Source: Mesorhizobium sp. PAMC28654 (GTDB lineage: Bacteria > Pseudomonadota > Alphaproteobacteria > Rhizobiales > Rhizobiaceae). Taken from it: a stretch of DNA of 64,000 nt. The notes beneath the pieces were generated by a model. That model searched no databases and was not told where the DNA came from. It saw only the letters and a list, made by a program, of their open reading frames with translations. The DNA lies in assembly GCF_020616515.1 (NCBI RefSeq), contig NZ_CP085135.1, positions 6,247,001 through 6,311,000 of the forward strand, written 5' to 3'. A program made the position numbers and the translations under genes. Of this stretch, positions 30,407 through 59,390 are shown piece after piece (position 1 is the stretch's first letter; the number at the start of each line of letters is the position of its first letter).

Positions 30407-30622
30407 TCAGAGGTTCTTGTTGACGGCGGCGGCTGCCTTGTTCGCGGCGTCCTTGGTCGCGGACTTCACATCGCCAACGGCTTTCTGTACCTTGCCCTTG
30501 GCTTCCTGGGCCGCGCCTTCGGCCTGAAGCTTGTCGTTGCCGACTGCCTTGCCAACGCCCTGCTTGACGCTGCCGGCGGCCTGGTTGGCGAGGCCCGCGG
30601 CCTTGTCGCTCGTGCTTCCCAT
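30407..30622 (-). CDS. CsbD family stress protein
   Basis: A 71-residue, alanine- and lysine-rich helical protein. It has the repeat pattern [20 protein letters not shown] then [20 protein letters not shown] of the CsbD fold (a four-helix bundle). CsbD proteins accumulate in stationary phase and under general stress; their biochemical role is unknown. A perfect GGAAC-N16-CGTT promoter lies 46-70 bases upstream, so EcfG-dependent expression is expected. AAGGA before the ATG is a clear ribosome site. Confidence 0.92.
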
Positions 30623-30667: not shown

Positions 30668-30692
30668 AACGTCACGTTCGGCGGAAGGTTCC
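30668..30692 (-). promoter_or_regulatory. EcfG-type general stress promoter of csbD
   Basis: On the minus strand GGAAC (30692-30688), 16 bases, then CGTT (30671-30668), an exact match to the alphaproteobacterial EcfG consensus. Transcription would begin near 30660, leaving about 40 bases before the ATG. The box is nearly palindromic, so the plus strand also reads GGAAC-N17-GTT towards the histidine-kinase gene at 30849. Confidence 0.8.
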
Positions 30693-30848: not shown

Positions 30849-31934
30849 ATGACATCCGATACCGAGAAGGCCAATGCGGTCGAGCAGTTGCTCGACACGC
30901 CCGACCTTGCCAGCGCGCTGGAAAGCGAGCAGTTCAAGAAATTCCTCGACCAAGTGCCGATCGCCATCGCGGTTTCGGACCTTGGAGGCAAGGAGCGTGT
31001 GGTCTATGCAAATCCTGAATTCGAGAAACTGTCGGGCCTGACGGCGGCCGCGCTCGCCTGGGAAAACTGGGCCGCGCTATCGGGAACCGGCCTGCACCAG
31101 CAGAACGACCGGACGCTGGCCGAGGCAGTGGTCGAGGACGCCGATTTCGTCGGCACGTTCCGGCTGGCACGCGGCGAGGCCACGCCGGCGATCGTCGACG
31201 TCTATTCCAATGTCATCGAGGACGACAATGGCAAGGTCTGCTTCCGGCTGGTGGCGCTGGTCGATGTCTCCGCCCATGGCGAGAGGGAGGATACACGCAC
31301 CGTCGAGGAACGCATCCGCGAGAAGGACACCCTGCTGCGCGAGTTGCAGCATCGGGTGAAGAACAATCTGCAGATGATCACCGCGCTGATCCGCCTGGAA
31401 ACCCGTAACGCGACCGAGCCGGATGAGAAGCGGTTCGAGCGGCTCGCCGGCCGCGTCGACGCTCTGGCGATCCTCTACCAGACGCTGTCGAGCGACGAGC
31501 AGAGGGACGAGGTCGATCTCGGTGTCTATCTCAGCCAGATCGCTTCGGCGGTGATGAACTCGCATGCCGTGGAGGGCATCCGCCTCGACATGAAGGTTGA
31601 CACCTATCCGGTGTCGCTCAACGTCGCCATGCCGACCGGGCTGGTGGTGAACGAGCTGCTGACCAATTCGTTGAAACATGCGTTTCGCGGCCGCGACGGC
31701 GGCACGATCACACTGCACAGCATCGTCGACGGCGATGGCTGCCGGATCGTGGTCGCCGACGACGGCATCGGCCTGCCGGAGGGCGAGACGTGGCCCAAGC
31801 CCGGCAAGCTCGGCGCGCTCATCGCACGCTCGCTGACCGAGAACGCCAAGGCGCAATTCGACGTCCATTCGAGCGCCAGTGAAGGCACGAAGGTCACCAT
31901 CGTGTTCCGGCGCTCGGTCGCCGTGGCGGCCTGA
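30849..31934 (+). CDS. PAS-domain sensor histidine kinase (HisKA_2 family)
   Basis: A 361-residue cytoplasmic kinase. The PAS domain is at about 28-140 (VPIAIAVSDLGGKERVVYAN). The dimerisation helix carries the phospho-accepting histidine in LLRELQHRVKNNLQMITALI near 163, and the ATPase domain has NELLTNSLKHAF, then DDGIGLPEG and LGALIARSL. No membrane segment or receiver is attached. Kinases of this class feed the PhyR-NepR-EcfG stress switch in related bacteria. The neighbouring csbD with its stress promoter makes this plausible here, but it is inference. Confidence 0.88.
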   Translation: MTSDTEKANAVEQLLDTPDLASALESEQFKKFLDQVPIAIAVSDLGGKERVVYANPEFEKLSGLTAAALAWENWAALSGTGLHQQNDRTLAEAVVEDADFVGTFRLARGEATPAIVDVYSNVIEDDNGKVCFRLVALVDVSAHGEREDTRTVEERIREKDTLLRELQHRVKNNLQMITALIRLETRNATEPDEKRFERLAGRVDALAILYQTLSSDEQRDEVDLGVYLSQIASAVMNSHAVEGIRLDMKVDTYPVSLNVAMPTGLVVNELLTNSLKHAFRGRDGGTITLHSIVDGDGCRIVVADDGIGLPEGETWPKPGKLGALIARSLTENAKAQFDVHSSASEGTKVTIVFRRSVAVAA

Positions 31935-47146: not shown

Positions 47147-47407
47147 CTATCCGGCAGTCACCAGGGTCAGTGCGTATGTCGCGCAGGAAATTCCGATTGA
47201 AATCAACGATATGATGAGGCTGGTCCTGGCGAGCTGAATGGCGCGCGGGTAGCGACCACGCGTCGCGAGGAAGAACAGCCCGCAGATTGCGCCGAATAGA
47301 ATGAACAGCGTCGCTGCGACTGCCGATCCAAACAGGGCTGCAAACCATAATATTATGGCAATTGCGCCGACCAGTCCAAATGCCATGTTCTGCAAGAATT
47401 CCATCAT
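47147..47407 (-). CDS. Small hypothetical membrane protein, 86 aa
   Basis: Two or three hydrophobic segments: GLVGAIAIILWFAALFGSAV (about 11-30), AATLFILFGAICGLFFLA, then after a basic loop (TRGRYPRAIQLARTS) a final helix LIISLISIGISCATYALTL. No motif is recognised. Convergent with nothing; it follows a 256-base untranslated gap (46891-47146) in which no other gene is apparent. Confidence 0.55.
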   Translation of the reverse strand: MMEFLQNMAFGLVGAIAIILWFAALFGSAVAATLFILFGAICGLFFLATRGRYPRAIQLARTSLIISLISIGISCATYALTLVTAG

Positions 47408-47527
47408 CGTTCCCCCGGCTGCCCAAGAGCTGAGATCAGAAGAATAGAATGATTTTCTTCGGGGCTGGAAATCTTGTCTATTTTCTGGGCATCGAATTGT
47501 CGCAAGGCACCTCTCTGGGGTCGGACC

Positions 47528-48268
47528 CTAAGCCGCGAGCTTCAGCGGTTGGGCAAAAACCACCCTGTTGCGGCCCTGTTCCTTGGCCTCGTAGAGGCAG
47601 CGGTCGACCTGCCGCATCAACTGGGTGCGGCTTTGGCCTGCTTGCGCCATGGCGACGCCGATGCTGACGGTCAGCCTGTGTGCGCGCGAGCCATCCGGGC
47701 GGAAGTCGATCTGCTCGACGGTGGCGCGAACACGTTCGGCGATCGTCGCCGCCTCTTCGCGACTGGTGTCGGGCAGGAACACGCAAAACTCCTCGCCGCC
47801 GACGCGGCCGACGAAATCCAACTCCCTGATCGAGCCGTGGATCGTCCGCGAGATCATCACCAGCGCCTCGTCGCCGGTCAGGTGGCCAAACGTGTCGTTG
47901 ATGCGCTTGAAGTGGTCGGCGTCGATCAGCAACAGCGCTCCCGCATCGCTCTGCCGCCGGCTCTGCTTCATCTGTTCGAAAAACGCTTCCCGGCTGAGGA
48001 AGCCGGTCAGGCCGTCGCGTCTGTATTTTTCATGCAGTTGCGCATGCGCCCGCGACAGTTCGGCGAGCGCGCGTTTCAATTTGCCGTTCTGCAGGAAGAT
48101 GATGAAGGCGGCCGGGAAGGCGGTGACGACTGGAAGTATCGAGTTCATGGCGAAGACGAACAGGGTGAAGGGCTGCCCGGCCGAAGCGCGGATCGCAAAG
48201 GACAGGATCTGGCTGACGGCGATGACGCCCCGCGTCACCAATACGGCCTTGAACGCGATCTTCAACAT
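47528..48268 (-). CDS. Membrane-anchored diguanylate cyclase (GGDEF)
   Basis: A 246-residue protein. Two N-terminal transmembrane helices (about 8-25 and 36-58) and a short coiled linker (NGKLKRALAELSRAHAQLHE) lead to a GGDEF domain with active-site GRVGGEEFCVFLP near 159. An intact RxxD inhibitory site (RELD) lies 5 residues before it, so the enzyme should make cyclic di-GMP and be product-inhibited. Small periplasmic loop only; the sensed signal is unknown. Confidence 0.88.
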   Translation of the reverse strand: MLKIAFKAVLVTRGVIAVSQILSFAIRASAGQPFTLFVFAMNSILPVVTAFPAAFIIFLQNGKLKRALAELSRAHAQLHEKYRRDGLTGFLSREAFFEQMKQSRRQSDAGALLLIDADHFKRINDTFGHLTGDEALVMISRTIHGSIRELDFVGRVGGEEFCVFLPDTSREEAATIAERVRATVEQIDFRPDGSRAHRLTVSIGVAMAQAGQSRTQLMRQVDRCLYEAKEQGRNRVVFAQPLKLAA

Positions 48269-48437
48269 GTCCCGGCCCTCGGCATTTCAACAGGCCGGCT
48301 GATAACGTCCAAGTGTTAAGGGCAGCCAAAAATATTCAGGCAAAGGCCGGCTACCATGGACCCTCCATCACGGCCAATGGCCGATCGCCCAACTTTGTCG
48401 AAGGGTCGGCGGGTCCTGCCGCCTTCCTTCCCGCCCG

Positions 48438-48671
48438 TCACGAATGGTGATGGATATGCTTTTCGGCGTCGACTTCCCCAACCGTGAGGCTCTGGAAGCC
48501 CGGCATCAACTGCCATATCGCCGCAAGGCCGATGACCACATAGGCCAGTCGGGCCAGTGTGGCGCCGCCGAGGATCGTGCCAATCATGTCATGGCCCGAT
48601 ATGCCCATGGACAGCCAGTTGAGGCCTCCAAGAATAATGAGGACGAGGGTGACGAGATTCATGGCGCGCAT
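48438..48671 (-). CDS. DUF378 family membrane protein
   Basis: A 77-residue protein with two helices: NLVTLVLIILGGLNWLSMGI (about 4-23) and ATLARLAYVVIGLAAIWQL (about 37-56). The IxGGxNWLxxG pattern and second-helix YxxIGLAAI are diagnostic of DUF378. A hydrophilic histidine-ending tail (EKHIHHHS) follows. Function unknown. An exact EcfG-type promoter 31-55 bases upstream places it in the general stress response. Confidence 0.85.
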   Translation of the reverse strand: MRAMNLVTLVLIILGGLNWLSMGISGHDMIGTILGGATLARLAYVVIGLAAIWQLMPGFQSLTVGEVDAEKHIHHHS

Positions 48672-48701
48672 AAACGCCTCCTGATGTTGCCTGACGAGAA
48701 A

Positions 48702-48726
48702 AACGGCTGTTGTTACAGACGGTTCC
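48702..48726 (-). promoter_or_regulatory. EcfG-type promoter of the DUF378 gene
   Basis: Minus strand GGAAC (48726-48722), 16 bases, CGTT (48705-48702). Exact consensus; the start codon is 31 bases downstream. Confidence 0.8.
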
Positions 48727-48850
48727 TTCGGTCACGACATTGTGACCGGTCACCTACAACTGGATGCGGACGATATCAGGTTCGATGGCGCGCCCGCGGC
48801 CCAAGGCGGGACGCCTTGTTCTATCAGGACACCCCTATTTGATCAGGACA

Positions 48851-49096
48851 TCATTCGATCAGAACATGGGCCTCGCGCGCGGCGTCGACGAAGGCCTCCC
48901 TGGCGATCTCGGGCGACACGTCGCCGCTCATGGCACGGCGGCATGCCCTCAGCGCGGCCTGGTGTTTCAGGCTGCCGGAATCGCGCCAATGCGTGGTGAG
49001 CAGATCAATGGCTTGCTGGGTATTGGACAGATTACGGATCGAACCGGTGATGCCGACGGAGATCATCACGGGTTTGGAAAACCATGCGGTTTGCAT
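48851..49096 (-). CDS. DUF982 family protein, copy 1
   Basis: An 81-residue protein, MQTAWFSKPVMISVGITGSI, then TQQAIDLLTTHWRDSGSLKH and ARRAMSG-like ACRRAMSGDVSPEIAREAF. This matches DUF982, a small rhizobial family of unknown function with an N-terminal strand region and helical core. AGG 5 bases before the ATG at 49096 fixes the start over one five codons earlier. Two further DUF982 genes lie at 53843-54339. A near-consensus stress promoter is upstream. Confidence 0.85.
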   Translation of the reverse strand: MQTAWFSKPVMISVGITGSIRNLSNTQQAIDLLTTHWRDSGSLKHQAALRACRRAMSGDVSPEIAREAFVDAAREAHVLIE

Positions 49097-49124
49097 ATGA
49101 ACCTCGAGCACGTTTGACTCGACA

Positions 49125-49149
49125 AACGCGTCTCCGAGCGCCCGGTTTC
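49125..49149 (-). promoter_or_regulatory. Near-consensus EcfG-type promoter of DUF982 copy 1
   Basis: Minus strand GAAAC (one mismatch), 16 bases, then CGTT at 49128-49125. Spacing as in the exact copies elsewhere in the window. Confidence 0.45.
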
Positions 49150-49230
49150 ATCACCGTGACGTGAGGCCGGCCACAGGGGACGGCATGGCACCGTCCAGAT
49201 CCCAAGCGGCATGCCGGACCACAACGGACC

Positions 49231-49437
49231 CTAGAGGATGCTGGTCGTTACCTCGACAACGATGGCGGCGCCGTCCAGCGAGCCATTCGGCATATGCACG
49301 ACGCGGGACACGCGCAAATCCTGGGCATTTCCGTCGATCGGCAGCGAAACGCTTTCGCCGATGCGCGGAACCGCCTGGAAGACGACGTCGGCTGATTCCT
49401 GACGGTTGTCGATCGATACGCGGCAACTGACGGTCAT
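49231..49437 (-). CDS. Small hypothetical protein, 68 aa
   Basis: Starts MTVSCRVSIDNRQESADVVF and ends in a beta-rich stretch (SLDGAAIVVEVTTSIL). GGAGAC lies 8 bases before the ATG. Predicted all-beta, without signal or membrane segment. A near-consensus stress promoter (TGAAC-N16-CGTT) precedes it. Conserved pattern unknown to me. Confidence 0.55.
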   Translation of the reverse strand: MTVSCRVSIDNRQESADVVFQAVPRIGESVSLPIDGNAQDLRVSRVVHMPNGSLDGAAIVVEVTTSIL

Positions 49438-49474
49438 GGATAGTCTCCGATGCTTCTGATGAACCCTATCCGTC

Positions 49475-49499
49475 AACGCGGGTGCCACGAAATGGTTCA
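49475..49499 (-). promoter_or_regulatory. Near-consensus EcfG-type promoter of the 68-aa gene
   Basis: Minus strand TGAAC (one mismatch), 16 bases, CGTT at 49478-49475. Confidence 0.4.
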
Positions 49500-49580
49500 A
49501 CGCCGGCGTTGCGGCGATCCGCGAAAGCGGGAAATCGCGGTGGCGGACGGGAAGAAACCAGTCCATCACATGTCGGCGAC

Positions 49581-49654
49581 TGGTTCCCGCTCATGGGCTC
49601 GAACCACGATTCACGCCTTCAAAGGGCGCTGTCCTACCATTAGACGAAGCGGGA
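49581..49654 (-). tRNA. tRNA-Gln (anticodon TTG)
   Basis: A 74-base cloverleaf including an encoded CCA. The acceptor stem pairs TCCCGCT with AGCGGGA, the T arm has CGTGG-TTCGAGC-CCATG, and the anticodon stem/loop is GCGCC-CTTTGAA-GGCGT, giving anticodon TTG. The U1-A72 first pair suits glutamine identity. The D arm and body resemble tRNA-Glu, as expected where Glu-tRNA(Gln) is made by a glutamyl-tRNA synthetase and converted by GatCAB. No integrase is adjacent. Confidence 0.88.
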
Positions 49655-49746
49655 AAAGTCAACGTGACGTTACCCCTAACCGGTTCGGCCGGCGGGATCA
49701 ACGCGTCCCGAGCATTGTCGGTGCGTTTCGGCCAACTGCAGGCGGA

Positions 49747-50037
49747 TCAATTCGTGAAACTGCCCACCGGCTCTTCGCATCGATAGAGAGGGCACGGGCC
49801 GTCGCTTGTATTGACATAGGCCGACGTCGGCACTTGCGGGTAGCATTCAGAGCTGAACTGCTGGACATAGCGGTCATAAGTGTTCTGGCCGGTGGTCAGC
49901 ACCGCCCCGTTCTGGTTCCGGATCAGCGCCTGGGCCTGTTCGCAGGTCATTTTCCGCGTGTCGGGCCGGGCCTCGGCAAAACCCGTGGCGGCGATCAGCA
50001 TCGCCGCGGTGCATAGCGCAATCTTGCGAATGGTCAT
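49747..50037 (-). CDS. Exported hypothetical protein, 96 aa
   Basis: Signal peptide MTIRKIALCTAAMLIAATGF, cleaved near AEA-RPDT. The mature part (RKMTCEQAQALIRNQNGAVL, then YDRYVQQFSSECYP and PCPLYRCEEPVG) contains four cysteines, likely two disulfides. Small secreted proteins of this type are widespread in rhizobia without known function. GGAT 8 bases before the ATG supports the start. Confidence 0.7.
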   Translation of the reverse strand: MTIRKIALCTAAMLIAATGFAEARPDTRKMTCEQAQALIRNQNGAVLTTGQNTYDRYVQQFSSECYPQVPTSAYVNTSDGPCPLYRCEEPVGSFTN

Positions 50038-50524
50038 GACGGCATCCTCATAAACATCATCCACTAAATTCGCATCTTGCGAGGCGGTTCCGCAACAGCC
50101 CCGCTGTCACGATGCAGCGAGCGGCGGATGCCAAAATCCGGCCACACGCTTTGGCGACAACAGACCCGGCAACCAAATCGCAGGTGGCGCATTCCTGGTC
50201 ATGGACAGCAGAAAACCCTACGAGACGCCGAGATGGTGGACTGGAAACCAGGACCGCCAAGGGATGTGTTGCGCCCGCTGCGGCAGTCGCGATCATGGTT
50301 ATGAGCAGTGCCCGCAAAACGATTTTTCGTCCGCGCCGCCCGCTGCTTCGCCCGAAAATGGCGGTAGCCGACCTGGCTGAGCCAGCCATCCTGTCCGGGA
50401 TTTTGGCTCGTTAAGAAAATTTCCACCTTGTTTGGTCCACCATCATCGCATGGGGCATGCTGCCCTGGCTCGGATTCCCGGCGCGCCGTTCGATGTGGAA
50501 CGCGCCCGGCCAGTGAGGCCAGGC

Positions 50525-51054
50525 ATGTCTTCGATATTTCCCGTGAACACCACGGCCTTGCTGATCCTGCGGCAGTCCCGCCCATTGGCCGGGTCATCCG
50601 ATGGCAGCCTCGATGCCAGCGGTGCTTCGGGACTGATCGGCGCCGGTTCGCCGCTGACGCAGGCGCGGGCAAAAATCTCCGATGCCATGTTCAGCGTCAA
50701 CAGCGTTGACCCAACGGAGATGAAGGTCAGGCTGATCGAGCGCCTGGGCGAGGAATTCGGCATCAAGCAAAGCGACTACACCTCGGTCGCCTCTTATGGC
50801 TGGGACATTAGAAGGGCTGTCGACGAACTGAAGGCGAAACCCGGCTCGGCGCTGGCAATCGCGGCGATCGAAAAGAGGCTGGGGCTGGACAGGCTGGGTG
50901 TCTCGCTCGACGATCTCGTCGATGCGACCATCGATCCGAAGAGCGACGGCGGCAAAAAGCTCGACGCGGCGCTGGCGAAACAGGCAGGTTGGCCAAGGGC
51001 AGGGGATTCACCGGCTCGCTCCAGCCGGACGAGATCGGAATCTACGGCCGCTGA
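50525..51054 (+). CDS. Hypothetical protein, probably frameshifted near the 3' end
   Basis: Starts MSSIFPVNTTALLILRQSRP; a helical region MKVRLIERLGEEFGIKQSDY, then LGVSLDDLVDATIDPKSDGG, runs to about residue 155. In the literal frame the ORF continues to 51205 with low-complexity Arg/Ser sequence. Adding one base near 50988 instead gives a natural ending GLAKGRGFTGSLQPDEIGIY and a stop at 51052-51054, about 176 residues. The latter resembles C-termini of small rhizobial flagellar- or surface-linked proteins, but no family is assigned. Confidence 0.5.
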
Positions 51055-51248
51055 GGCGAATTCCCGCCAGGGACTTCGCCGTGCGCCAGCCTCGCAAGGA
51101 TCAGCTCCCGACAACGCCTCTGACAGGCCGGGCGAGCGCGAATACGGAATGTCGAGCACTGATCGCAACCAAAATGCCTCGCCGTGCATTGCTTGGCACG
51201 GGTGACTAAATTCCGTGGTGGTCGCGGACCGGAGAGGCAGGCAGGGGC

Positions 51249-52310
51249 ATGACAGAATTGGCGGGCATTGGTCTGACCGTCATCCCAGCCAGCGCAAGGC
51301 TGGCGGCTATTGTCGATTCCTCCTTCGATGCCATCATCAGCAAGGATATGAACAGCGTCATCACCAGCTGGAACGGGGCGGCGCAACGCATGTTCGGTTA
51401 CACGTCCGAGGAGGCGGTCGGCCGGTCCATACTCATGCTCATCCCCGATCATCTCAGGGACGAAGAGGCGGATATCATCGGCCGGGTTCGCCAAGGCGAG
51501 CGCGTGGCCAGCTATGAGACCGTCCGTCAGCGCAAGGACGGCAGCTTCGTGGCGGTGTCGCTGACCGTCTCGCCGATCAGGAATGAAGCGGGCGAGATCA
51601 TAGGCGCGTCGAAGATCGCGCGCGACATCACCGCGACCAAGGAGAGCGAGCGCCGGATCAGGCTCCTGATGCGGGAGGTGAACCATCGCGTCAAGAACCA
51701 GTTCGCGGTGATCCTGTCCATGGTCAGGGAGACAGGCAGGCGCTCGACCGACCCGCGCGAGTTCGAGGAACTGATCCGCTCCCGCATCATGGCGCTGTCG
51801 CGGTCGCATGACCTGCTAGTGAATTCGGAGTGGGCGGGAGCCAGCCTCTTCGACCTCATCCAGGAGCATCTCAAGCCGTTCGGCCACGAAGGGCAGGTGT
51901 CGCTGTCTGGACCGCTTCTGACCCTGCAGCCGAACGCGGTGCAGAATCTCGGCATGGCATTTCACGAACTTGGCACCAACTCGTCCAAGTACGGCGCGCT
52001 TGCCAGCGGCAACGGGCGGCTCGAGATCACCTGGCAGATCGCTACCGGCATTTCGGGCGAACGGGAACTTCGGCTGATCTGGGACGAGACATCGCCTGTT
52101 CGTGCCGGGGAGACCGAAAGCACGCGCAAGGGGTTTGGCACCATCGTGCTGCAGCGGGTCGCACCGCAATCGCTGAATGGTTCGGCGGTCCTGGAGCGTT
52201 GTCCCGGCCATGTCACCTGGGCCCTGACCGCGCCGCTGGATTCGATCATCGTTCCGCAACTCGGCGTCGAGATAAAAGCCGCCGAAAGCGTGCCGGCCTT
52301 CGGCCTGTGA
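51249..52310 (+). CDS. PAS-domain HWE-family sensor histidine kinase
   Basis: A 353-residue soluble kinase. PAS domain at 15-135 (IVDSSFDAIISKDMNSVITS, NGAAQRMFGYTSEEAVGRSI, with PAC region). HWE kinase: histidine in LLMREVNHRVKNQFAVILSM near 150, N-box FHELGTNSSKYGALASG near 240, and WDET supplying the W-x-E. Responds to a cytosolic ligand or redox signal. No receiver partner is adjacent; such orphan kinases often feed the general stress PhyR system, which fits the EcfG-rich neighbourhood. Confidence 0.88.
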   Translation: MTELAGIGLTVIPASARLAAIVDSSFDAIISKDMNSVITSWNGAAQRMFGYTSEEAVGRSILMLIPDHLRDEEADIIGRVRQGERVASYETVRQRKDGSFVAVSLTVSPIRNEAGEIIGASKIARDITATKESERRIRLLMREVNHRVKNQFAVILSMVRETGRRSTDPREFEELIRSRIMALSRSHDLLVNSEWAGASLFDLIQEHLKPFGHEGQVSLSGPLLTLQPNAVQNLGMAFHELGTNSSKYGALASGNGRLEITWQIATGISGERELRLIWDETSPVRAGETESTRKGFGTIVLQRVAPQSLNGSAVLERCPGHVTWALTAPLDSIIVPQLGVEIKAAESVPAFGL

Positions 52311-52402
52311 GTTTCAGGCACCGGCTCCGCCATGTCATTGGCATCGGTGCCGGATGACCCGGCTCCCGTCCAGGTGGGTTTCGATTTCACAAGGGGCCGA
52401 AG

Positions 52403-52427
52403 GGAACTGGCGCGCGGCGGTTACGTT
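52403..52427 (+). promoter_or_regulatory. EcfG-type promoter of the mgtC-family gene
   Basis: GGAAC (52403-52407), 16 bases, CGTT (52424-52427). Exact consensus, 29 bases before the ATG at 52456. Confidence 0.78.
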
Positions 52428-52455
52428 GTGGGCGTCAGGCTTTCAGAGGGAATTC

Positions 52456-52986
52456 ATGGAACAACTCATCGAGGAATTCGGCCATCCCACCTACACGTCG
52501 TTTCCGGTCATCGCGGCACGACTTCTCCTGGCGACGCTTTTCGGCGCTGTCATCGGCTTCGAGCGTGAATGGCGCAATCGTCCCGCCGGGCTGCGCACTC
52601 ATGTTCTCGTCTGCCTGGCGGCAGCGACATTCGGTATCCTGACCATCGAGATCATCCATGCGCCGATGTTCGCGCGGGAGTCGGTCAAGGTCGATCCGAT
52701 CCGCGTTGTCGAGGCGGTCACCGCCGGCGTTGCCTTCCTGGCCGCCGGCTCAATCATGCTTTCCCGGGGCGAAGTACACGGCCTGACGACGGGTGCCGGC
52801 ATGTGGCTTGCCGGCGGCATCGGCCTGGCATGCGGGCTTGGCCTGTGGCAGGTGGCCGGCTTCGGAACGCTGCTGGTGCTGATCGTCTCGGGCCTGCTGG
52901 CGCGCCTGTGGATCCCGACGAGCGACGAGCCGCCAAAGCCGCAATCGAAATCGCCGCGCGCTTCCACCACAAAACGCCGAACCTAG
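52456..52986 (+). CDS. MgtC/SapB family membrane protein
   Basis: A 176-residue protein with about five helices. The family signature is ARLLLATLFGAVIGFEREWR (about 20-40) with RPAGLRTHVLVCLAAATFG following; then GVAFLAAGSIMLSRGEVHGL and TTGAGMWLAGGIGLACGLG. MgtC-type proteins support survival at low magnesium or under stress and can act on the F-ATPase in intracellular pathogens; the role in free-living relatives is unclear. AGAGGG precedes the ATG. An exact stress promoter drives it. Confidence 0.86.
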   Translation: MEQLIEEFGHPTYTSFPVIAARLLLATLFGAVIGFEREWRNRPAGLRTHVLVCLAAATFGILTIEIIHAPMFARESVKVDPIRVVEAVTAGVAFLAAGSIMLSRGEVHGLTTGAGMWLAGGIGLACGLGLWQVAGFGTLLVLIVSGLLARLWIPTSDEPPKPQSKSPRASTTKRRT

Positions 52987-53176
52987 CGCGTTGGTCGCCG
53001 TCATGGCGCTCCACAGGGGCGCGTCTGACGACCGCCCTATATCCACGGTTGGTCCCGCCAGCGCGGATGCCATCCGTTTTTCCGGCCAACCTTTTTGCAA
53101 CATGGACGTTAGCCCTTCGTAATACGAAGGAGATGCCCATGCTGGCCAGGTCCGATACGTCGAGAAGAGGGAGGCG

Positions 53177-53482
53177 ATGATGAAGCCGCTTCTCATGCTG
53201 ACTGTCGCCCTGACGCTCACGACGGCGCCCGCCACGGCCCAGACCGAGCAGGGCGACAACCCGCGGGCGGCGACCCGGCCGACGGAAAAATGCCGTGCGC
53301 AAACGGACAGCAGCAAGCAAAAGCCCGCCGACAACACGCTCAGCGAGACGCTGGACAATTGCGGCGGTGTGCTGAATCCGCCCGCCACCGGCGACCAGGG
53401 CATGACGACGCCGCCTCCGGCCGAGGGCAACACGCCGGTGATCAAGCCAGGCGAGGTGCCGGCGCAACCGCCGAAACAGTAG
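53177..53482 (+). CDS. Exported hypothetical proline-rich protein, 101 aa
   Basis: Signal peptide MMKPLLMLTVALTLTTAPAT, cleaved near ATA-QTE. The mature part is polar, with two cysteines (EKCRAQT and LDNCGGVL), and ends in a proline-rich tail (GNTPVIKPGEVPAQPPKQ). The 190 bases before it hold a CTTCG/CGAAG hairpin near 53112. No family recognised. Followed by a strong terminator. Confidence 0.6.
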   Translation: MMKPLLMLTVALTLTTAPATAQTEQGDNPRAATRPTEKCRAQTDSSKQKPADNTLSETLDNCGGVLNPPATGDQGMTTPPPAEGNTPVIKPGEVPAQPPKQ

Positions 53483-53504
53483 TCATTGGCATGAGGAGCA
53501 GAGT

Positions 53505-53536
53505 AAAGGCGGGGAAACCCGCCTTTCAGCTTTTTT
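53505..53536 (+). terminator. Terminator after the proline-rich protein gene
   Basis: Stem AAAGGCGGG / CCCGCCTTT with loop GAAA, then TTTTTT at 53531-53536. Confidence 0.8.
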
Positions 53537-53589
53537 GGACTCACCACTCAATTCTTCCGAAGGACAGAATTACGGCGCGATGAGGACGA

Positions 53590-53614
53590 GGAACCTCCGC
53601 GTTAACAAAACGTT
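53590..53614 (+). promoter_or_regulatory. EcfG-type promoter of the 43-aa membrane peptide
   Basis: GGAAC (53590-53594), 16 bases, CGTT (53611-53614). Exact consensus, 36 bases before the GTG at 53650. Confidence 0.78.
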
Positions 53615-53649
53615 TCTGTCACAAGAGAAAATCTGAAAAGGAATTGAAC

Positions 53650-53781
53650 GTGAGAAATATTGCCAGCACCGCTGCATTTCTTGCCTCGATCGCCATCGTG
53701 ATCGTCATGATGCTGATGGCTCCGAAGAATTTTGGTTTTGATTCTTCCCATCCCATTGTTGAGGCTGGCGCATCGAAATAG
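53650..53781 (+). CDS. Small membrane peptide, 43 aa
   Basis: Begins with GTG after AAGGA (8-base spacing): MRNIASTAAFLASIAIVIVM, then MLMAPKNFGFDSSHPIVEAG and ASK. One transmembrane helix (about 6-24) and a short soluble tail. It is too short for routine gene callers. An exact EcfG-type promoter lies at the right distance, which is the best evidence that it is a real gene. Function unknown; probably a stress-induced membrane peptide. Confidence 0.6.
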   Translation: MRNIASTAAFLASIAIVIVMMLMAPKNFGFDSSHPIVEAGASK

Positions 53782-53842
53782 GGCGAGGCACATGGTTCCA
53801 GTGGCTTGGGATTCCAGGGAGCCTAGTTGCCTGAACAGGGCT

Positions 53843-54088
53843 CTATCCAACCACCACGCCGGCATGGTCGCATAGCGCCGTAAAGACTTCCTGGGCTTGG
53901 GAAGCGCTCTCATCACCATTCATGGCTGCTTCGACCGTCTCGCGCGCGGCCTGATAGAAAGGGCCGCGCCTGGCATGTGGCCAATCGATCAGGATTTCGC
54001 TTGCGTCCTTGAGGGTCGCGACATGGCGGATCGTGTCCGAACCATGCGGCTTGATCCGCATCGGTGCGACCATGGGCAGGTCAACCAT
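53843..54088 (-). CDS. DUF982 family protein, copy 3
   Basis: An 81-residue protein. After a longer N-terminus it reads TIRHVATLKDASEILIDWPH, then GPFYQAARETVEAAMNGDES and ALCDHAGVVV, matching DUF982. Its start overlaps the stop of the DUF982 gene upstream (TGATG), so both come from one stress-promoter transcript. The copies differ widely in sequence. Confidence 0.8.
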   Translation of the reverse strand: MVDLPMVAPMRIKPHGSDTIRHVATLKDASEILIDWPHARRGPFYQAARETVEAAMNGDESASQAQEVFTALCDHAGVVVG

Positions 54089-54339
54089 CAGGATCTCCCG
54101 CCGTCGGACAGCACCGCGGCTTCGCGCGCGGCATCGATCATGGCCTTCATCGCCTTCTCAGGCGGTGTCCAGCCGTCGAGAGCATCACGGCAACTGCGCA
54201 CCGCTGCCCGGTACCGGCGGCCGCCATGTGTCGGCCAATCCCCCAGGCATTCAAGGCCTTCCCAGGCGCTGCGTACGACGCGTTCCCGTGCCGGGCCGAA
54301 TTTCAACCTGACCGGGTGAGGGAAAATCTTGTCGTTCAA
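54088..54339 (-). CDS. DUF982 family protein, copy 2
   Basis: An 83-residue protein: FPHPVRLKFGPARERVVRSA, WEGLECLGDWPTHGGRRYRA and AVRSCRDALDGWTPPEKAMK are in the order of the DUF982 core (strand pair, W-P, AxxxCxxA). Its stop overlaps the start of copy 3. The exact EcfG-type promoter begins 31 bases before the start, so the pair is a small stress operon. Confidence 0.82.
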   Translation of the reverse strand: MNDKIFPHPVRLKFGPARERVVRSAWEGLECLGDWPTHGGRRYRAAVRSCRDALDGWTPPEKAMKAMIDAAREAAVLSDGGRS

Positions 54340-54369
54340 GGTGGTTCTCCGTCGCTTGGAACGCCGGAT

Positions 54370-54394
54370 AACGCTACTGACTGCCCGAGGTTCC
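54370..54394 (-). promoter_or_regulatory. EcfG-type promoter of the DUF982 pair
   Basis: Minus strand GGAAC (54394-54390), 16 bases, CGTT (54373-54370). Exact consensus, 31 bases before the start at 54339. Confidence 0.8.
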
Positions 54395-54408
54395 TGCCCG
54401 GAACGGTT

Positions 54409-54588
54409 TTAGCTCCGTGCGGCCATGTAGGAGTCGAGTTTGCGCCGCGACGGGCCATAACGCTTGATGATGGTCTGGGCTTCGCTCTGTGGGATGCCGT
54501 ATTTCCGCGCGAAGGCGGCGGCTTCGTAGGGTTCTTCACCGGCGACCGGTTTGCGATCCAGGCTGGTCTTCGATTTGACGTCTGTCAT
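54409..54588 (-). CDS. DUF3606 domain protein, 59 aa
   Basis: Starts MTDVKSKTSLDRKPVAGEEP and continues with helical YEAAAFARKYGIPQSEAQTI and IKRYGPSRRKLDSY, matching DUF3606, a single-domain family from Proteobacteria of unknown function. AGGA 7 bases before the ATG at 54588 decides the start. No EcfG-like box was found here, unlike its neighbours. Confidence 0.78.
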   Translation of the reverse strand: MTDVKSKTSLDRKPVAGEEPYEAAAFARKYGIPQSEAQTIIKRYGPSRRKLDSYMAARS

Positions 54589-54767
54589 GGGAAAATCCTC
54601 ATATCTGTTGCCGGAGGAGCCAGGTCTCATTCGCCTGACTGCATTGCCACGGTGGCTCGGGGACGGCCCGGCTGTTTGACGGTACAGATGGGGACTGCGG
54701 GCCCGGCATACAACGGTCAAGGCCCGCCAGCGCGGTTGCCCCTGCGGACCCCGCCCTGCCTCCGCGA

Positions 54768-55049
54768 TCAGGAAGGCGCCTGCATGGCTTGCGATGCCTG
54801 TTCCGCGTCAGCTTCGTGGGGTTGCGGGCAGGTGGTGCACCGGGTGCTTTGTCCGGGGCAGCCACGCTGTTGCGTGCCGGCGGGACAGCAATGACCATTG
54901 GTGTCGTCCCACCGATGGCACTGGAAAACCTGGCCCGCACCGCCGCAGCCATGGCATTCCGGCGCCGTTGACCGGACCAGAAGTGAACGCACCCCGTACT
55001 TCGCACTTACGCCCGACATATGCCCCCACTCGAATGCCTGCCACGGCAT
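54768..55049 (-). CDS. Cysteine-rich small protein (CxxCxGxG motif), tentative
   Basis: An open frame of 93 codons with many cysteines in its second half: ECHGCGGAGQVFQCHRWDDT, then GHCCPAGTQQRGCPGQSTRC and TTCPQPHE. CHGCGGAG resembles one repeat of a DnaJ-type zinc finger. The N-terminal start is not clear (an ATG at 55049 and later ones). It occupies a gap in which no other frame looks coding. The flanks 54589-54767 and 55050-55350 hold nothing recognisable. Confidence 0.35.
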   Translation of the reverse strand: MPWQAFEWGHMSGVSAKYGVRSLLVRSTAPECHGCGGAGQVFQCHRWDDTNGHCCPAGTQQRGCPGQSTRCTTCPQPHEADAEQASQAMQAPS

Positions 55050-55350
55050 ATCAGCCCAAGCTTATATTAAAACGGGAGCAGTTACAGATAAGTTTCACGG
55101 CGCCGGAGCCCGATGGACCCGGTCGAGCGCAAGGCGGTTTCATCCGGATTGAATCCGGTTTCTCCTCTATCCTTTTGTTGGAAATATCTTTTCCGGTAGC
55201 CGGCCCCTGCCTTTCGGGTTCGAAGACGGCCCAGGTCGGCCTGCTGACGGACAGCCGTGGCAGGCTGGTGTCGACCCGCATTGCAGGCAAGTCCTGCAAC
55301 TCTACCCCGTAGCGGTGCGACCGGAATCCGCTCGGTTTTCGGATGGCGCT

Positions 55351-55542
55351 TCAGGCCGGCTTCAGATGCATGGCCGACAGATACATGAGCGCCGAGGCGG
55401 CCTGCCTGCGGTCCCAGCCGGCGGCCTCGACCTTATCGAGGAGCGCCTCGAGGTGAGGGGAAAGCACGTCCCGGCATTCCTTCTCATAGGCGGCGTGCAT
55501 TGCCTTGTGTTGCGGGGCATTGATGGTGAGTGCCTTGGCCAT
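55351..55542 (-). CDS. Small conserved hypothetical protein, 63 aa
   Basis: MAKALTINAPQHKAMHAAYE, then KECRDVLSPHLEALLDKVEA and AGWDRRQAASALMYLSAMHL. All-helical, acidic and soluble. GGAGGGG 10 bases before the ATG at 55542 decides the start over a longer frame. The DRRQAASALMYLS pattern resembles other tiny rhizobial proteins, but no family is assigned. Confidence 0.6.
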   Translation of the reverse strand: MAKALTINAPQHKAMHAAYEKECRDVLSPHLEALLDKVEAAGWDRRQAASALMYLSAMHLKPA

Positions 55543-55834
55543 GTCCGATTTCCCCTCCGTCCAGTTCATGAATCTATAACACCCGCACAGGAATCGGAAT
55601 CGATTTCTGCGAGCCCGGCACATGGATTCAACGGCTTAGAGGCTTTCTGGCCACCCGTTTCGGCAGCCGGCTTGCCCTACCGTATGGGGCGTGCGTCGGA
55701 TTTCACGCGGATCGTCCGCTTGTCGGCATGCGGAAGCCGCTTTGGCGCAGGGCACCCGCCCGCGCAAGCGCATGGCTTCGCGGCCGCCGAGGCTTGGCGT
55801 CAAGATGAACGGACTGGCGAGCATTGATGCGCAA

Positions 55835-55858
55835 AACCCGGCAAGGGGCTGCCGGGTA
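55835..55858 (-). terminator. Terminator of the 56-aa gene
   Basis: Stem ACCCGGCA / TGCCGGGT around AGGGGC, followed on the minus strand by TTTTG. The rest of the gap 55543-55866 shows nothing coding. Confidence 0.6.
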
Positions 55859-55866
55859 AGGCCTGC

Positions 55867-56037
55867 TCAGCGGTCGTCGGCCAGCGTATTCTCGATTGCC
55901 GCGATGTTGAGCTCCAGCCGTGCCACCATCTGCAACGTGCTTGCGCTCGGCATTGTCGCCATCTCGGCCGCCGCGTAGAGGAGCTGGCGTTGCTCAGCCT
56001 TCAGGCGCGCCAGCAATGACTGCAGTTTTTGTTCCAT
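55867..56037 (-). CDS. Small helical hypothetical protein, 56 aa
   Basis: MEQKLQSLLARLKAEQRQLL, then YAAAEMATMPSASTLQMVAR and LELNIAAIENTLADDR: an amphipathic helix-turn-helix likely to dimerise. AAGGGGG before the ATG at 56037 supports this start. A start at 56106 would add 23 residues, but then a near-consensus stress promoter (GGAAC-N16-CGAT, minus strand, 56133-56109) would be too close to the start. Function unknown. Confidence 0.55.
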   Translation of the reverse strand: MEQKLQSLLARLKAEQRQLLYAAAEMATMPSASTLQMVARLELNIAAIENTLADDR

Positions 56038-56214
56038 GTCCCATTCCCCCTTGGCTCGTTGTGCGTCCAAACGGAGGCGCAGCGTGTCCCAAGTTGTTGA
56101 ATCCATGCATCGTGGGTGCCGAAAACCGGTTCCGGTCCTCCGGCCGATGCAACAGCCCGCTCGCGGCCTATAAGGCAGATGGCACAACGTCTCAAGGACG
56201 ATCGGAGAGCAGCC

Positions 56215-56367
56215 ATGAACAATCCGTTCAGCCATGCGAATTCGTGGCGAATTCGTGCGGATTTCCGCACCTCCGCCACGTCGGCTGCCCGCCCGCGCTG
56301 GCTGCCGAGAAGTCGGGGAACCTTGAGCGGACCAGCATCCGGCAAAAAAAGTTTGACGAGCCTGTAG
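56215..56367 (+). CDS. Possible small basic protein, 50 aa
   Basis: MNNPFSHANSWRIRADFRTS, then ATSAARPRWLPRSRGTLSGP and SGKKSLTSL, strongly basic. GGAG lies 9-12 bases before the ATG. Only composition and a ribosome site support it. It is the only candidate in the 318-base gap between the 56-aa gene and the doxX gene. Confidence 0.25.
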   Translation: MNNPFSHANSWRIRADFRTSATSAARPRWLPRSRGTLSGPASGKKSLTSL

Positions 56368-56424
56368 GCGGCGGCCACGGTTGGCCGTCCTTTGGGGAAA
56401 CCAACACCCCTGGGGGACCAAGTC

Positions 56425-56844
56425 ATGTCATCGGAAACCGTTCAATCGCCGCTGAAAACGTCAGCCATTCTCATCGGCCGCCTGATCTTCGCCGCCGTCT
56501 TCCTGATGGCCGTGTCTTTCAAATTCATGGGCATGGGCGCCACCGCCGGCTACATCGCCGCCGCTGGATTTCCCTTTCCCTTGTTCCTGGCCTGGTGCGC
56601 GGCGCTGCTTGAATGCGCCCTGGTCATCTGCTTCCTGACTGGCGCCTTCTTTTCACAGGCCGCCCTTGTCGCCGCCGTCTATGTCCTGTTCCTCGGCTTT
56701 TCCTTTCATGGGCCAGGACACTGGGCCGCCAACCAGGATGAGTTCGGCTTCTTCATCGACCATTTCACGTTCCTGGCCGGACTGCTGTTCGCCGCCGTCA
56801 ACGGGCCAGGCCGCGTGCTGACGCTGACTCCCGGCGGATCCTGA
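56425..56844 (+). CDS. DoxX family membrane protein
   Basis: A 139-residue protein with four helices. AILIGRLIFAAVFLMAVSFK and GYIAAAGFPFPLFLAWCAAL, then LLECALVICFLTGAFFSQAA and the FLAGLLFAAVNGPGR end, give the DoxX pattern (helix 1 RxxxAxxFxxxGxxK, helix 2/3 P...E). DoxX-like proteins influence redox stress and sulfur oxidation complexes. GGGGG before the ATG at 56425 decides the start. Confidence 0.82.
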   Translation: MSSETVQSPLKTSAILIGRLIFAAVFLMAVSFKFMGMGATAGYIAAAGFPFPLFLAWCAALLECALVICFLTGAFFSQAALVAAVYVLFLGFSFHGPGHWAANQDEFGFFIDHFTFLAGLLFAAVNGPGRVLTLTPGGS

Positions 56845-57067
56845 CCTGGGCAAGCTTTGACGATGTGGCGAGCAATCGTCGCATCGTTATTGCGATCGTT
56901 GGCCCCAGCAGACCTTCGGGTTTGCAGGTTGGCATTCATTGTTCCATGGCCAGGGGCCAAATGTGTGGGAGCTCGTTGTCATCCGGATGGCGACATGTGG
57001 TGCGGCGGGCTCCGCCCCTTGACTTCGCTGCATTCCGTCCCAGTTTGATGAGGCGGGAGTTTTCAAA

Positions 57068-57184
57068 ATGCGACACAGCTGGCGAAAGCCGTCCAGTTTC
57101 CTGGAACGGTATTTCGGCGTGGTCATCGCCGTTGGCCTGGTTGCCGGATTGTCGCTGATGGCGATGCTTGGCTATACGCCTTGA
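57068..57184 (+). CDS. Small single-helix membrane peptide, 38 aa
   Basis: MRHSWRKPSSFLERYFGVVI, then AVGLVAGLSLMAMLGYTP. One transmembrane helix after a basic N-terminus, so the C-terminus is probably outside. GGGAG is 9 bases before the ATG. It lies alone in a gap between doxX and the cupin gene. Too short for routine callers. Confidence 0.45.
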   Translation: MRHSWRKPSSFLERYFGVVIAVGLVAGLSLMAMLGYTP

Positions 57185-57212
57185 TGCCATCGCTCTCCAC
57201 AGGCTCCTCGCT

Positions 57213-57647
57213 TCAACCCGGCCGCGGCGCGACGGGGATCAGGCCATGGCGCAGCATGACCTCTTTCATCTTTACCGGGTCGGGCGCGCCGGCGCCAAGG
57301 AGCGCGGCGATCTCGCGGAAATAGCCGGGGCCCAGCGCACCCGGCGTGAGCACGCAGAGGCACGTCGCCGGCGCTTGCGTCTTGTTGGCGAAGCCATGCA
57401 CCACGCCGCGCCTGATGAAGGCGGATTGTCCGGGGCCAATGGCAGTGTCCTGACCGTCGATGTGGAAATTGATGGTGCCGTCCAGCCCATAGACGGCCTC
57501 GTCCCAGCTCTCGTGATAATGCGGGACCGGCATGCGGGCATTGGGCTGCGCCGTCATCTCGAACATGTCGATGCCGCCGTCGGTGGTCTCCCTGGACTGC
57601 AGGAACCGCAGCTCCAGCCCGCCAATGCTTATCGTTTCGGTTGCCAT
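57213..57647 (-). CDS. Cupin-domain protein
   Basis: A 144-residue single-cupin protein. The metal-binding motif 1 is PVPHYHESWDEAVYGLDGTI (near 40, H-x-H then E), and motif 2 is FIRRGVVHGFANKTQAPATC (near 77). Such proteins bind a divalent metal; many are uncharacterised isomerases, dioxygenases or sensors. GGAG before the ATG supports the start. It could be an antibiotic- or sugar-linked cupin; the substrate cannot be read. Confidence 0.82.
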   Translation of the reverse strand: MATETISIGGLELRFLQSRETTDGGIDMFEMTAQPNARMPVPHYHESWDEAVYGLDGTINFHIDGQDTAIGPGQSAFIRRGVVHGFANKTQAPATCLCVLTPGALGPGYFREIAALLGAGAPDPVKMKEVMLRHGLIPVAPRPG

Positions 57648-57796
57648 CTTCCGCTCCTTCAGGGCGTCCGGTCGCGCGCGGCGCCGGAAAAGGCATCATC
57701 ATCACCCTGTGCGAAAAAAGCCAAGGCCTACTTGGCCTCATCTGCCGTTCCCCGAGCAGAGCGCCGCAAAAGGCCTGCTCAATTCCCAGGGAACGC

Positions 57797-58393
57797 CTAT
57801 TGCGGCCTCAGCCAGTTGGCGAGCAGGGTCAGCGGCCAGATCAGTATGTAGGCGATGGAGGCATCGGTCGGCCGCACGAAGGCGACGGCCACACTGGCCA
57901 GCGCGCTGATGCCGATGATCAATGCCGACCGCCAGCCAGTATCGTGGCCCTCGGCCGTGCCGTCCGAAAACAGCGCCGGGTGGGCCCGAAGATGCAGGTT
58001 GCGCAGCACCGCCACCAGTTGGATGGCAACGATGTTGACGGCGTAGATGATGTGCGACTGCGGCAGTTCGTCATGCTCGCCGATCAGCGTGGTGGTGAAG
58101 GGCACGACGCTGGTCACCAGCAGCCAGAGCACCACCAGCCTGAACAGCCGCCCGTCGATATGGCCGACCTGGCGGAAATCCTTGACATGGCGCTGCCAGC
58201 AGAGCGCCAGGATGAGGAAGCTCACCACCCATGAAACGATCTTCGGCCGCAGCGTGGCGAGCGCGCCGAACAGATCGCCATGGATATCGTCGGGCAGCTT
58301 CAACCCGAAGACGAGCAGCGTCATGGTGATGGCGAGAATGCCATCGACGAGGGCGTCCAGGCGATTGCGGGGGAGGTAGGATGGTGCCGGCAT
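57797..58393 (-). CDS. TMEM175-like (DUF1211) potassium channel family protein
   Basis: A 198-residue protein with six hydrophobic segments, the length of bacterial TMEM175 subunits. The N-terminal signature is RNRLDALVDGILAITMTLLV; the family usually shows FSD before GxxAI, and here it reads LVDGI. Later RLFRLVVLWLLVTSVVPFTT is a typical helix pair. It is expected to tetramerise into a K+-leak channel. Starts at 58393 where the signature begins. A 20-base palindrome lies 8 bases upstream. Confidence 0.82.
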   Translation of the reverse strand: MPAPSYLPRNRLDALVDGILAITMTLLVFGLKLPDDIHGDLFGALATLRPKIVSWVVSFLILALCWQRHVKDFRQVGHIDGRLFRLVVLWLLVTSVVPFTTTLIGEHDELPQSHIIYAVNIVAIQLVAVLRNLHLRAHPALFSDGTAEGHDTGWRSALIIGISALASVAVAFVRPTDASIAYILIWPLTLLANWLRPQ

Positions 58394-58400
58394 TTTCCGG

Positions 58401-58420
58401 TTATACGCGATGGCGTATAA
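58401..58420. promoter_or_regulatory. Palindrome before the TMEM175-like gene
   Basis: A perfect inverted repeat, TTATACGC-GATG-GCGTATAA, followed 8 bases on by a further half-site ATATACGC. It lies just upstream of the start at 58393, so it may be an operator or stem-loop in the leader. Confidence 0.45.
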
Positions 58421-58498
58421 ATTTGGATATACGCGACAAAAGCTGGTCGAGCGATCAGGACCGGCCGGCTTCAAATGCACGACAGCTGCGTGGCGGCT

Positions 58499-58804
58499 TC
58501 ACATCTGGTCGTTGTAGGCTTCTTTCATTTGGCCGACCATTCGCGCCAGTTTTGAAAATGAAGGAATGTCGGCTTCCGGCTGGCACTGATTGGCCAGTTC
58601 CAGCAGCCGGATCGGGAAATTGACGGCGTCGCGGCTCGATGACGACATGCCCTCTGACCGTTCTTCGCTGGTCTCGCTGGCTTCGGCCTTCCGCAAGGCG
58701 ATGTCGATTTCCTCGGCGGAGAGTACACCCTTGCGGACTAGCGCGTGGTTGATGGCTGCTATTGCCATCAGCAGACCTTCGATTTGCAGATTGGCTACGT
58801 TCAT
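58499..58804 (-). CDS. Hypothetical protein, 101 aa
   Basis: MNVANLQIEGLLMAIAAINH, then ALVRKGVLSAEEIDIALRKA and EASETSEERSEGMSSSSRDA. Helical and acidic, with a polar linker in the middle and a last helix SFSKLARMVGQMKEAYND. GGGAG before the ATG at 58804 decides the start. It resembles small rhizobial proteins of the DUF-type with an AEEIDxALRxAE helix; function unknown. Confidence 0.6.
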   Translation of the reverse strand: MNVANLQIEGLLMAIAAINHALVRKGVLSAEEIDIALRKAEASETSEERSEGMSSSSRDAVNFPIRLLELANQCQPEADIPSFSKLARMVGQMKEAYNDQM

Positions 58805-59021
58805 GGCTTTGCTCCCATTGACAGGGTCCAACGCGCGACGGCCGGTTACGATCCGAATGACAGTCGGGCCTCGCAAGGCGCGCCGCGCATGAACTGATTC
58901 ATGCGAAGCGCTTAAGCCGTTGTTTCCATGCAGGTCTGACCCTTCGGACGTGGCCGCGATGCCTTGCGTGCGAAATGCGACTATGATGGCCTTGGGCTGG
59001 GTTCGAAGCAGGGAGGTTGTC

Positions 59022-59390
59022 TTGCGCCTTTTACTGGCTATTGGTTTTGCCGTGGCGATGACGACGGCAGCGTCCGCCGGCATGACGATGAATTTCGAAT
59101 GGGGCCCGACGGCCAAGTGCTTTGATCCGAAATCGCCGCCGATCACGCTTTCCGGTGTTCCCGCCGGGACGAAGACCCTGGCGTTCAACATGGTCGATCT
59201 GGATGCTCCCAGCTTCAAGCATGGCGGTGGCACGGTTGCCTTCGGCGGCCAGAAAAATCTGCCCTATGGAGCGTTCAGCTATCGCGGACCATGCCCACCC
59301 AGGCCGCATACCTACGAGATCTCGGTGAGGGCACTCGATGGCAGCGGCAAAGCCCTCGGCACTGCAAAAGCGCGACGACGTTTTCCCTGA
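59022..59390 (+). CDS. YbhB/YbcL-like (PEBP family) exported protein
   Basis: A 122-residue protein. The most likely start is TTG at 59022, five bases after GGGAGG, giving MRLLLAIGFAVAMTTAASAG as signal peptide. The mature part has PEBP landmarks: SPPITLSGVPAGTKTLAFNM, VDLDAPSFKHGGGTVAFGGQ, then YRGPCPPRPHTYEISVRALD. Ligand-binding DxD/P and GPCPP are kept. The family binds small anionic ligands. The C-terminus is short but complete (GTAKARRRFP). Confidence 0.78.
   Translation: MRLLLAIGFAVAMTTAASAGMTMNFEWGPTAKCFDPKSPPITLSGVPAGTKTLAFNMVDLDAPSFKHGGGTVAFGGQKNLPYGAFSYRGPCPPRPHTYEISVRALDGSGKALGTAKARRRFP

Follow-up and report, generated by a model that had tools for sequence, protein, structure and literature searches.

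EcfG-type promoter boxes before small genes in a conserved chromosomal block of Mesorhizobium sp. PAMC28654

Known EcfG regulons and the cluster in the window

The general stress response (GSR) of Alphaproteobacteria is controlled by HWE/HisKA2 kinases that phosphorylate PhyR, which in turn draws NepR from the sigma factor EcfG (PMC12148442), and the promoter motif of Rhizobium etli EcfG1 has been given as GGAAC-N16-CGTT (PMC3892343). Departures from this motif are described as well: in Sphingomonas melonis, GCAAC, TGTT and AGTT forms occur among the EcfG-dependent genes (PMC6599016), and according to the Sphingopyxis data, where csbD is a GSR target, the AAC triplet is kept, GGAAC and GCAAC are commonest and the -10 box varies (PMC7083833). 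Here, a cluster of such boxes was analyzed in a 64,000-nucleotide (nt) stretch of Mesorhizobium sp. PAMC28654 (NZ_CP085135.1, positions 6,247,001 to 6,311,000), referred to below as the window. The cluster has the same -35/-10 pair and the same 16-base spacing as the R. etli EcfG1 regulon (PMC3892343), lies in a genome with EcfG, NepR and PhyR, as in other alphaproteobacterial EcfG regulons, and consists mostly of nameless genes, just as 150 of the 202 RpoE2-dependent genes reported for Sinorhizobium meliloti are without predicted function (PMC3616915). Likewise, GSR promoters of Sphingopyxis granuli keep the AAC triplet and show -10 variants in real targets; the authors of that study considered different use by two EcfG paralogues (PMC7083833), whereas the window genome has one clear EcfG and the variant is fixed per gene. 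What sets the window apart from known EcfG regulons is that its targets are gathered in a second dense cluster on the chromosome, with box variants that are specific to each gene and maintained genus-wide. A literature search by title and abstract, with subscription journals outside its reach, found no account of this cluster or of a Mesorhizobium EcfG regulon; DUF982 turned up in a single paper.

We consider it highly probable that the cluster is a satellite locus of the alphaproteobacterial GSR that is read by EcfG. The features by which a GSR regulon is recognized were found together, namely a box shortly upstream of the genes, EcfG, NepR and PhyR in the genome, and conservation of the box in orthologues. 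The box model was GGAAC-N16-CGTT, with N17 also scored, and position numbers refer to the window. An exact box stands upstream of the DUF378 gene, mgtC, the gene of a peptide of 43 amino acids (aa) and the DUF982 pair, and variant forms alone stand before DUF982 copy 1 and the 68-aa and 101-aa genes:

48702..48726, minus strand: exact EcfG-type box of the DUF378 gene (pattern match)
49125..49149, minus strand: variant box GAAAC-N16-CGTT of DUF982 copy 1 (one mismatch)
49475..49499, minus strand: box of the 68-aa gene, TGAAC in the window strain and GAAAC in relatives (one mismatch)
50067..50091, minus strand: decayed box of the 105-aa open reading frame (ORF), with two mismatches; the pattern of the relatives is lost in the window
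52403..52427, plus strand: exact EcfG-type box of the mgtC-like gene (pattern match)
53086..53110, plus strand: CCAAC-N16-CGTT element before the 101-aa gene, kept in relatives and missed by the sequence-only reading
53590..53614, plus strand: exact EcfG-type box of the 43-aa gene (pattern match)
54370..54394, minus strand: exact EcfG-type box of the DUF982 pair, copies 2 and 3 (pattern match)
56109..56133, minus strand: unsupported box with CGAT before a 56-aa ORF at 55867-56037 (one mismatch)
30668..30692, minus strand: exact box of a csbD-like gene (30407-30622), outside the cluster (pattern match)

Five exact and three one-mismatch boxes had been reported by an earlier reading of the sequence alone (hereafter the sequence-only reading), the coordinates of which proved correct with a spacer of 16 in all eight; the distance from box to start is 25-71 nt for the starts chosen here, and 46 nt for the csbD-like gene. 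That reading recognized a real and conserved EcfG-type promoter cluster, locally dense and standing before tiny genes, with most boxes kept across the genus, but missed three conserved elements. The comparison with relatives covered seven of its eight boxes, leaving out that of csbD; six were upheld by conservation and the one at 56109 found no support.

Conservation and density of the boxes

The strongest evidence for the cluster is conservation. The loci compared were 20 from genomes of the same genus and 34 found through a close orthologue of DUF982 copy 2 (33 Mesorhizobium, one 'Bacterium'); the closest named protein came from M. shangrilense (90%). Within the 200 nt upstream of DUF982 copy 2 an exact N16 box was present in 32 of these 34 loci and an exact N17 box in the remaining two, as compared to an exact box in 0/45 distant DUF982 relatives (Fisher test, 4e-20), among which a one-mismatch box was found once (1/45); random 200-mers from all 79 loci contained an exact box in 5 of 2261 cases. 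The 43-aa gene was preceded by an exact box in 24 of 25 relatives and by an N17 box in the other, mgtC by an exact box in 14/16 and an N17 box in one more, and the DUF378 gene by an exact box in all six orthologues with enough upstream sequence (6/6). The variant forms were kept as well: GAAAC-N16-CGTT stands before DUF982 copy 1 in 9/10 relatives and before the 68-aa gene in 17/18, the window strain with TGAAC being the outlier, and [CA]CAAC-N16-CGTT, an element spotted in an unanchored alignment, stands before the 101-aa gene in 23/24. Moreover, relatives carry GGAAC-N16-TGTT before a DUF3606-like gene (25/30) and GGAAC-N16-[AG]GTT before the 105-aa ORF (19/22); the best match in the window has three mismatches for the former and two for the latter, and both boxes have decayed in the window strain. 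Throughout the genus each gene has retained its particular box form, which points to set promoter strengths.

In alignments made blind to the box, all nine boxed genes showed the two elements as conserved blocks around a spacer that varied more, and DoxX and others showed different blocks; matches to the nine patterns in shuffled upstream regions came to 0 to 0.2%. No box with at most one mismatch was found before DUF982 copy 3 (0/30), the 63-aa gene (0/15), the DoxX gene (0/28, with none at two mismatches either) or the orthologues of the HWE kinase of the block (0/22).

The window genome carries 15 copies of DUF982, a domain missing from all but 9 of 150 genomes sampled from the order (the window genome is one of the nine). 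Seven of the 15 copies have an N16 box, exact or with one mismatch, within 250 nt of the domain, the control being 172 of 4000 random 250-mers of window positions 1-45000; in other genomes, from the search of the 150, 13 of 25 DUF982 loci had such a box as compared to 71 of 1684 random pieces, with 9/12 loci in the same genus and 4/13 outside it. The strong form of the idea that DUF982 is a family-wide GSR marker is ruled out by the lack of any exact box in the distant relatives, and the link between box and DUF982 belongs, on the sequences compared, to certain orthologous groups. A structure model of DUF982 (mean predicted local distance difference test score, pLDDT, of 89) gave one match at E <= 0.001, namely the uncharacterised Agrobacterium nuclear magnetic resonance structure 2kpq, so that no function follows from it. 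In one relative, the same block contains a further 75-aa frame with an exact box (L066:14927, plus strand), called DUF982-like from weak matches and sequence reading, which suggests a gene gain at the block.

The boxes are also locally dense. The window contains five exact boxes (N16-17) as compared to a mean of 1.06 in shuffled sequence, with 0/100 shuffles reaching five, and 28 boxes with at most one mismatch as compared to a mean of 13.9, with 1/100 shuffles reaching 28. Between genes, the density of exact boxes at positions 48400-56450 (four in 3.67 kb) was about 26-fold that of 20 random 20-kb stretches (400 kb), whose 70.7 kb of intergenic sequence contained three (Poisson P 2e-5); when one mismatch was allowed, seven boxes were counted and 1.25 expected (P 3e-4). 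Gene calls for these counts came from a simple codon-usage script, which overlooked both the 43-aa gene and DUF982 copy 2. Equal density in random intergenic windows had been named beforehand as the result that would speak against the cluster, and this close approximation to that comparison gave local enrichment instead. Genome-wide, at least four exact boxes within 6 kb were found only at the window cluster and at the ecfG-nepR-phyR locus, and uniform placement produced a group of four within 5.7 kb anywhere in 0.6-1.0% of trials. In the complete genomes of two relatives, G021 and G009, the syntenic place holds three exact boxes, within 3.2 kb in G021 and 1.9 kb in G009; the core locus has eight within about 7 kb in the former and ten within about 9 kb in the latter. 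As a post hoc count, 19 of the 100 exact boxes of the window genome (G000, a single contig of 6.70 Mb) fall within 444 kb at 5.94-6.38 Mb, where 6.6 are expected, and several of them precede small genes and DUF982 copies.

The genes for NepR (E 6.8e-16), PhyR and EcfG lie together at 4.684 Mb of the window genome. This core locus likewise has densely packed exact boxes, nine in 9.1 kb (4.681-4.690 Mb) and eight in 1.83 kb of intergenic sequence (Poisson P 3e-14), and HWE kinase genes nearby, with three matches within about 4.5 kb on either side. In comparison, the window cluster has outputs and one kinase, and no EcfG, NepR or PhyR gene was found in it. The PAS-HWE kinase of the window combines an HWE catalytic core with a sensor domain, as is the case for PhyR-activating HWE kinases; its scores with the NCBIfam models of PhyK and of blue-light kinases were far below the cut-offs. 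Among the non-core HWE/HisKA_2 kinases of the same genome, 5/8 have an exact box no more than 2 kb away (5% expected, P 2e-5) and 7/8 have one within 5 kb, as compared to none within 2 kb and three within 5 kb for the 12 other ECF (extracytoplasmic function) sigma genes. Two of the five kinase-near boxes overlap the open frame of the kinase, one of them on the opposite strand, and replication was weak, with 0/7 kinases in G009 and 1/4 in G021 within 2 kb and 3/7 and 2/4 within 5 kb; linkage of kinases and boxes was rejected as a general rule on this weak replication and is kept as a lead. The csbD-like gene with its exact box, a label given by sequence reading both earlier and here rather than by a family search, is oriented divergently to the gene of a second kinase, which is of the HisKA_2 type (30849-31934, plus strand). 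At another place in this genome (6156193-6156217, or L226:1694, minus strand), an exact box and the open frame of an HWE kinase overlap in the part that follows the HWE domain; 34 nt after this box comes a 136-aa frame resembling, by sequence reading, a receiver-domain response regulator (no family search was made).

Genes of the block

The block has the order DUF378, DUF982, 68-aa, tRNA-Gln, 105-aa, (kinase), (mgtC), 101-aa, 43-aa, two DUF982, DUF3606, 63-aa and DoxX, which is much alike in many species. In the window its features are the following, with the ratio of nonsynonymous to synonymous differences given as pN/pS:

48438..48671, minus strand: DUF378 protein, 77 aa (Pfam PF04070, 53 bits)
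48851..49096, minus strand: DUF982 copy 1, start chosen from relatives (PF06169, 80.6 bits)
49231..49437, minus strand: conserved small protein of 68 aa without an accepted family (19 orthologues outside the window, median pN/pS 0.20)
49581..49654, minus strand: tRNA-Gln (TTG), intact and syntenic in relatives
49747..50037, minus strand: 96-aa protein, the 105-aa ORF read from its conserved start (32 orthologues besides the window)
51249..52310, plus strand: PAS-HWE histidine kinase (PF07536, 85 bits; PF00989, 73 bits)
52456..52986, plus strand: MgtC-family membrane protein, 176 aa (PF02308, 115.5 bits on a longer frame)
53177..53482, plus strand: 101-aa protein, relatives start at 53180 (median pN/pS 0.34)
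53650..53781, plus strand: 43-aa peptide, GTG start (26 orthologues, median pN/pS 0.21)
53843..54088, minus strand: DUF982 copy 3, overlaps copy 2 and has no box of its own (PF06169, 46 bits)
54088..54339, minus strand: DUF982 copy 2, TTG start (PF06169, 64.6 bits)
54409..54588, minus strand: DUF3606-like 59-aa protein, box lost in the window strain (21.7 bits, below the cut-off of 24.3)
55351..55542, minus strand: 63-aa protein, no conserved box (ORF)
56425..56844, plus strand: DoxX protein at the edge of the conserved block, no box (PF07681)

With median pN/pS values of 0.10-0.34 across the twelve genes tested, kinase included, the small ORFs of the block are, by their pattern of substitution, real genes; an internal stop interrupts a single orthologue each of the 68-aa, mgtC and DUF982 copy-2 genes. 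Non-ATG starts have been retained: 32 of 35 DUF982 copy-2 genes (window included) begin with TTG, and all but one of 27 genes for the 43-aa peptide with GTG or TTG. DUF982 copies 2 and 3 are likely part of the same operon. The start of the 96-aa protein reads like a signal peptide, the 101-aa protein is apparently secreted and the 43-aa peptide apparently has one membrane span. A single-sequence search with this peptide retrieved three related proteins and a profile search 55, none with a precomputed Pfam domain, the species-named ones being hypothetical proteins of Mesorhizobium.

Mechanism, rival explanations and significance

We infer EcfG binding, stress induction, graded promoter strength, any part played by the neighbouring kinase and any functions of the small proteins. 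Following this, we propose that under stress HWE-type kinases would phosphorylate PhyR, which would remove NepR from EcfG, and that RNA polymerase with EcfG would then start transcription at the N16-spaced boxes of the cluster. About seven short transcripts would be switched on, coding for DUF378, three DUF982 proteins, the 43-aa peptide, MgtC and the 68-aa and 101-aa proteins, with the strength of each promoter set by the box variant of its gene, and individual small genes may enter, leave or lose their box.

Several observations speak against reading the cluster in this way. In the whole genome the exact N16 pattern occurs 100 times as compared to 107 for the reversed pattern, and the N17 pattern 40 times as compared to 68, which is neither over-representation nor enrichment. 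As the bare pattern gives no genome-wide signal, many single matches must be noise; genome-wide enrichment of the bare pattern was rejected, and whole-genome counting by itself would say that the boxes are chance matches in a GC-rich genome. Such an origin would also fit the box at 56109, which the sequence-only reading had assigned to a 56-aa gene, the protein of which was not matched by tblastn in either 20 relatives or another 34 loci. The numbers from relatives have to be discounted to some degree, as the variant patterns were picked after viewing the alignments, the 34 loci were selected for a close DUF982 copy 2, and the species are related, so that the counts overstate independent events. 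Additionally, one of 19 fetched relatives with the kinase has a one-mismatch box before it, and other three-box groups within about 6 kb are present in G021 and G009, where a cluster of the window type is dense, not unique. Against chance stand the boxes kept in up to 34 loci despite diverged spacers and the local enrichment between genes; we therefore regard it as highly improbable for the cluster, refuted by the comparison with relatives for the conserved elements, although it may account for the box at 56109.

It could also be argued that the boxes, or at least the variants, are read mainly by another ECF sigma factor. The genome has twelve further ECF-like matches at 26-38% identity to EcfG, so that the next closest sigma factor is 38% identical, and the variant -35 forms GAAAC and CCAAC are kept per gene. 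Other ECF sigma factors, too, use AAC-type -35 elements. The Sphingopyxis study describes the AAC triplet as common to ECF factors (PMC7083833), and GAAAC and CCAAC were not seen among the well-scored EcfG targets in the published sets compared. These two forms could belong to one of the twelve further ECF-like proteins. On the other hand, the exact form with the same spacing fills the ecfG-nepR-phyR locus and equals the published EcfG motif (PMC3892343), and we hold another ECF factor as main reader to be rather unlikely. That the block is a stress island, acquired recently by insertion at tRNA-Gln, would be suggested by the presence of a tRNA gene inside it and by gene content that differs between species, as some have the kinase on the opposite side and mgtC and DUF378 come and go. 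The tRNA-Gln is intact with block genes on both sides, adjoining the 105-aa ORF in 11 of the 13 relatives fetched that have DUF982 copy 2 (in L067, one of the two exceptions, the contig starts at the 105-aa ORF), the synteny extends through relatives, and the GC content of 0.619 is ordinary as compared to 0.55-0.64 in 20 random stretches. Unusual composition together with absence from close relatives, as in genomic islands, was thus not seen, and no integrase match was present among 20 proteins scanned (47147-59233), attachment repeats not being searched for. A mobile island at tRNA-Gln was rejected on the intact tRNA, synteny and GC content, and recent acquisition appears hardly credible. Of the term accessory island used by the sequence-only reading, the word accessory is fair for single variable genes such as mgtC and DUF378, and island in the sense of a mobile or acquired block finds no support.

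Judged by its gene order and composition, the cluster is an old locus of the chromosome where genes have turned over next to a PAS-HWE kinase, and no mobile island. In seven more distant loci of the same genus (L076-L082) the kinase is kept and the 43-aa gene and the DUF982 pair are without close orthologues; an exact box of similar sequence lies about 1-3 kb from the kinase in 7/7, and in six of them a 67-aa protein, CsbD-like by sequence reading, starts 30-32 nt after this box, while a motif search in L080 found no CsbD-like protein. A tentative idea, which we put forward as a possibility and no stronger, is that the locus may be a docking place where small EcfG-driven genes were gained, lost and swapped around a GSR sensor kinase, each with a fixed promoter strength, and that kinase and outputs might form a second self-contained GSR module.

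Returning to EcfG as the probable reader, the cluster looks like a real, little-studied output station of the general stress response. Tiny nameless proteins, such as DUF982, DUF378, the 43-aa peptide and others, are placed by conservation under a known stress sigma factor, and this placement gives each small protein a condition in which to seek its function. Moreover, as each gene has kept its own promoter variant in about 30 species, the boxes provide a ready-made series in which to study how EcfG reads imperfect boxes.

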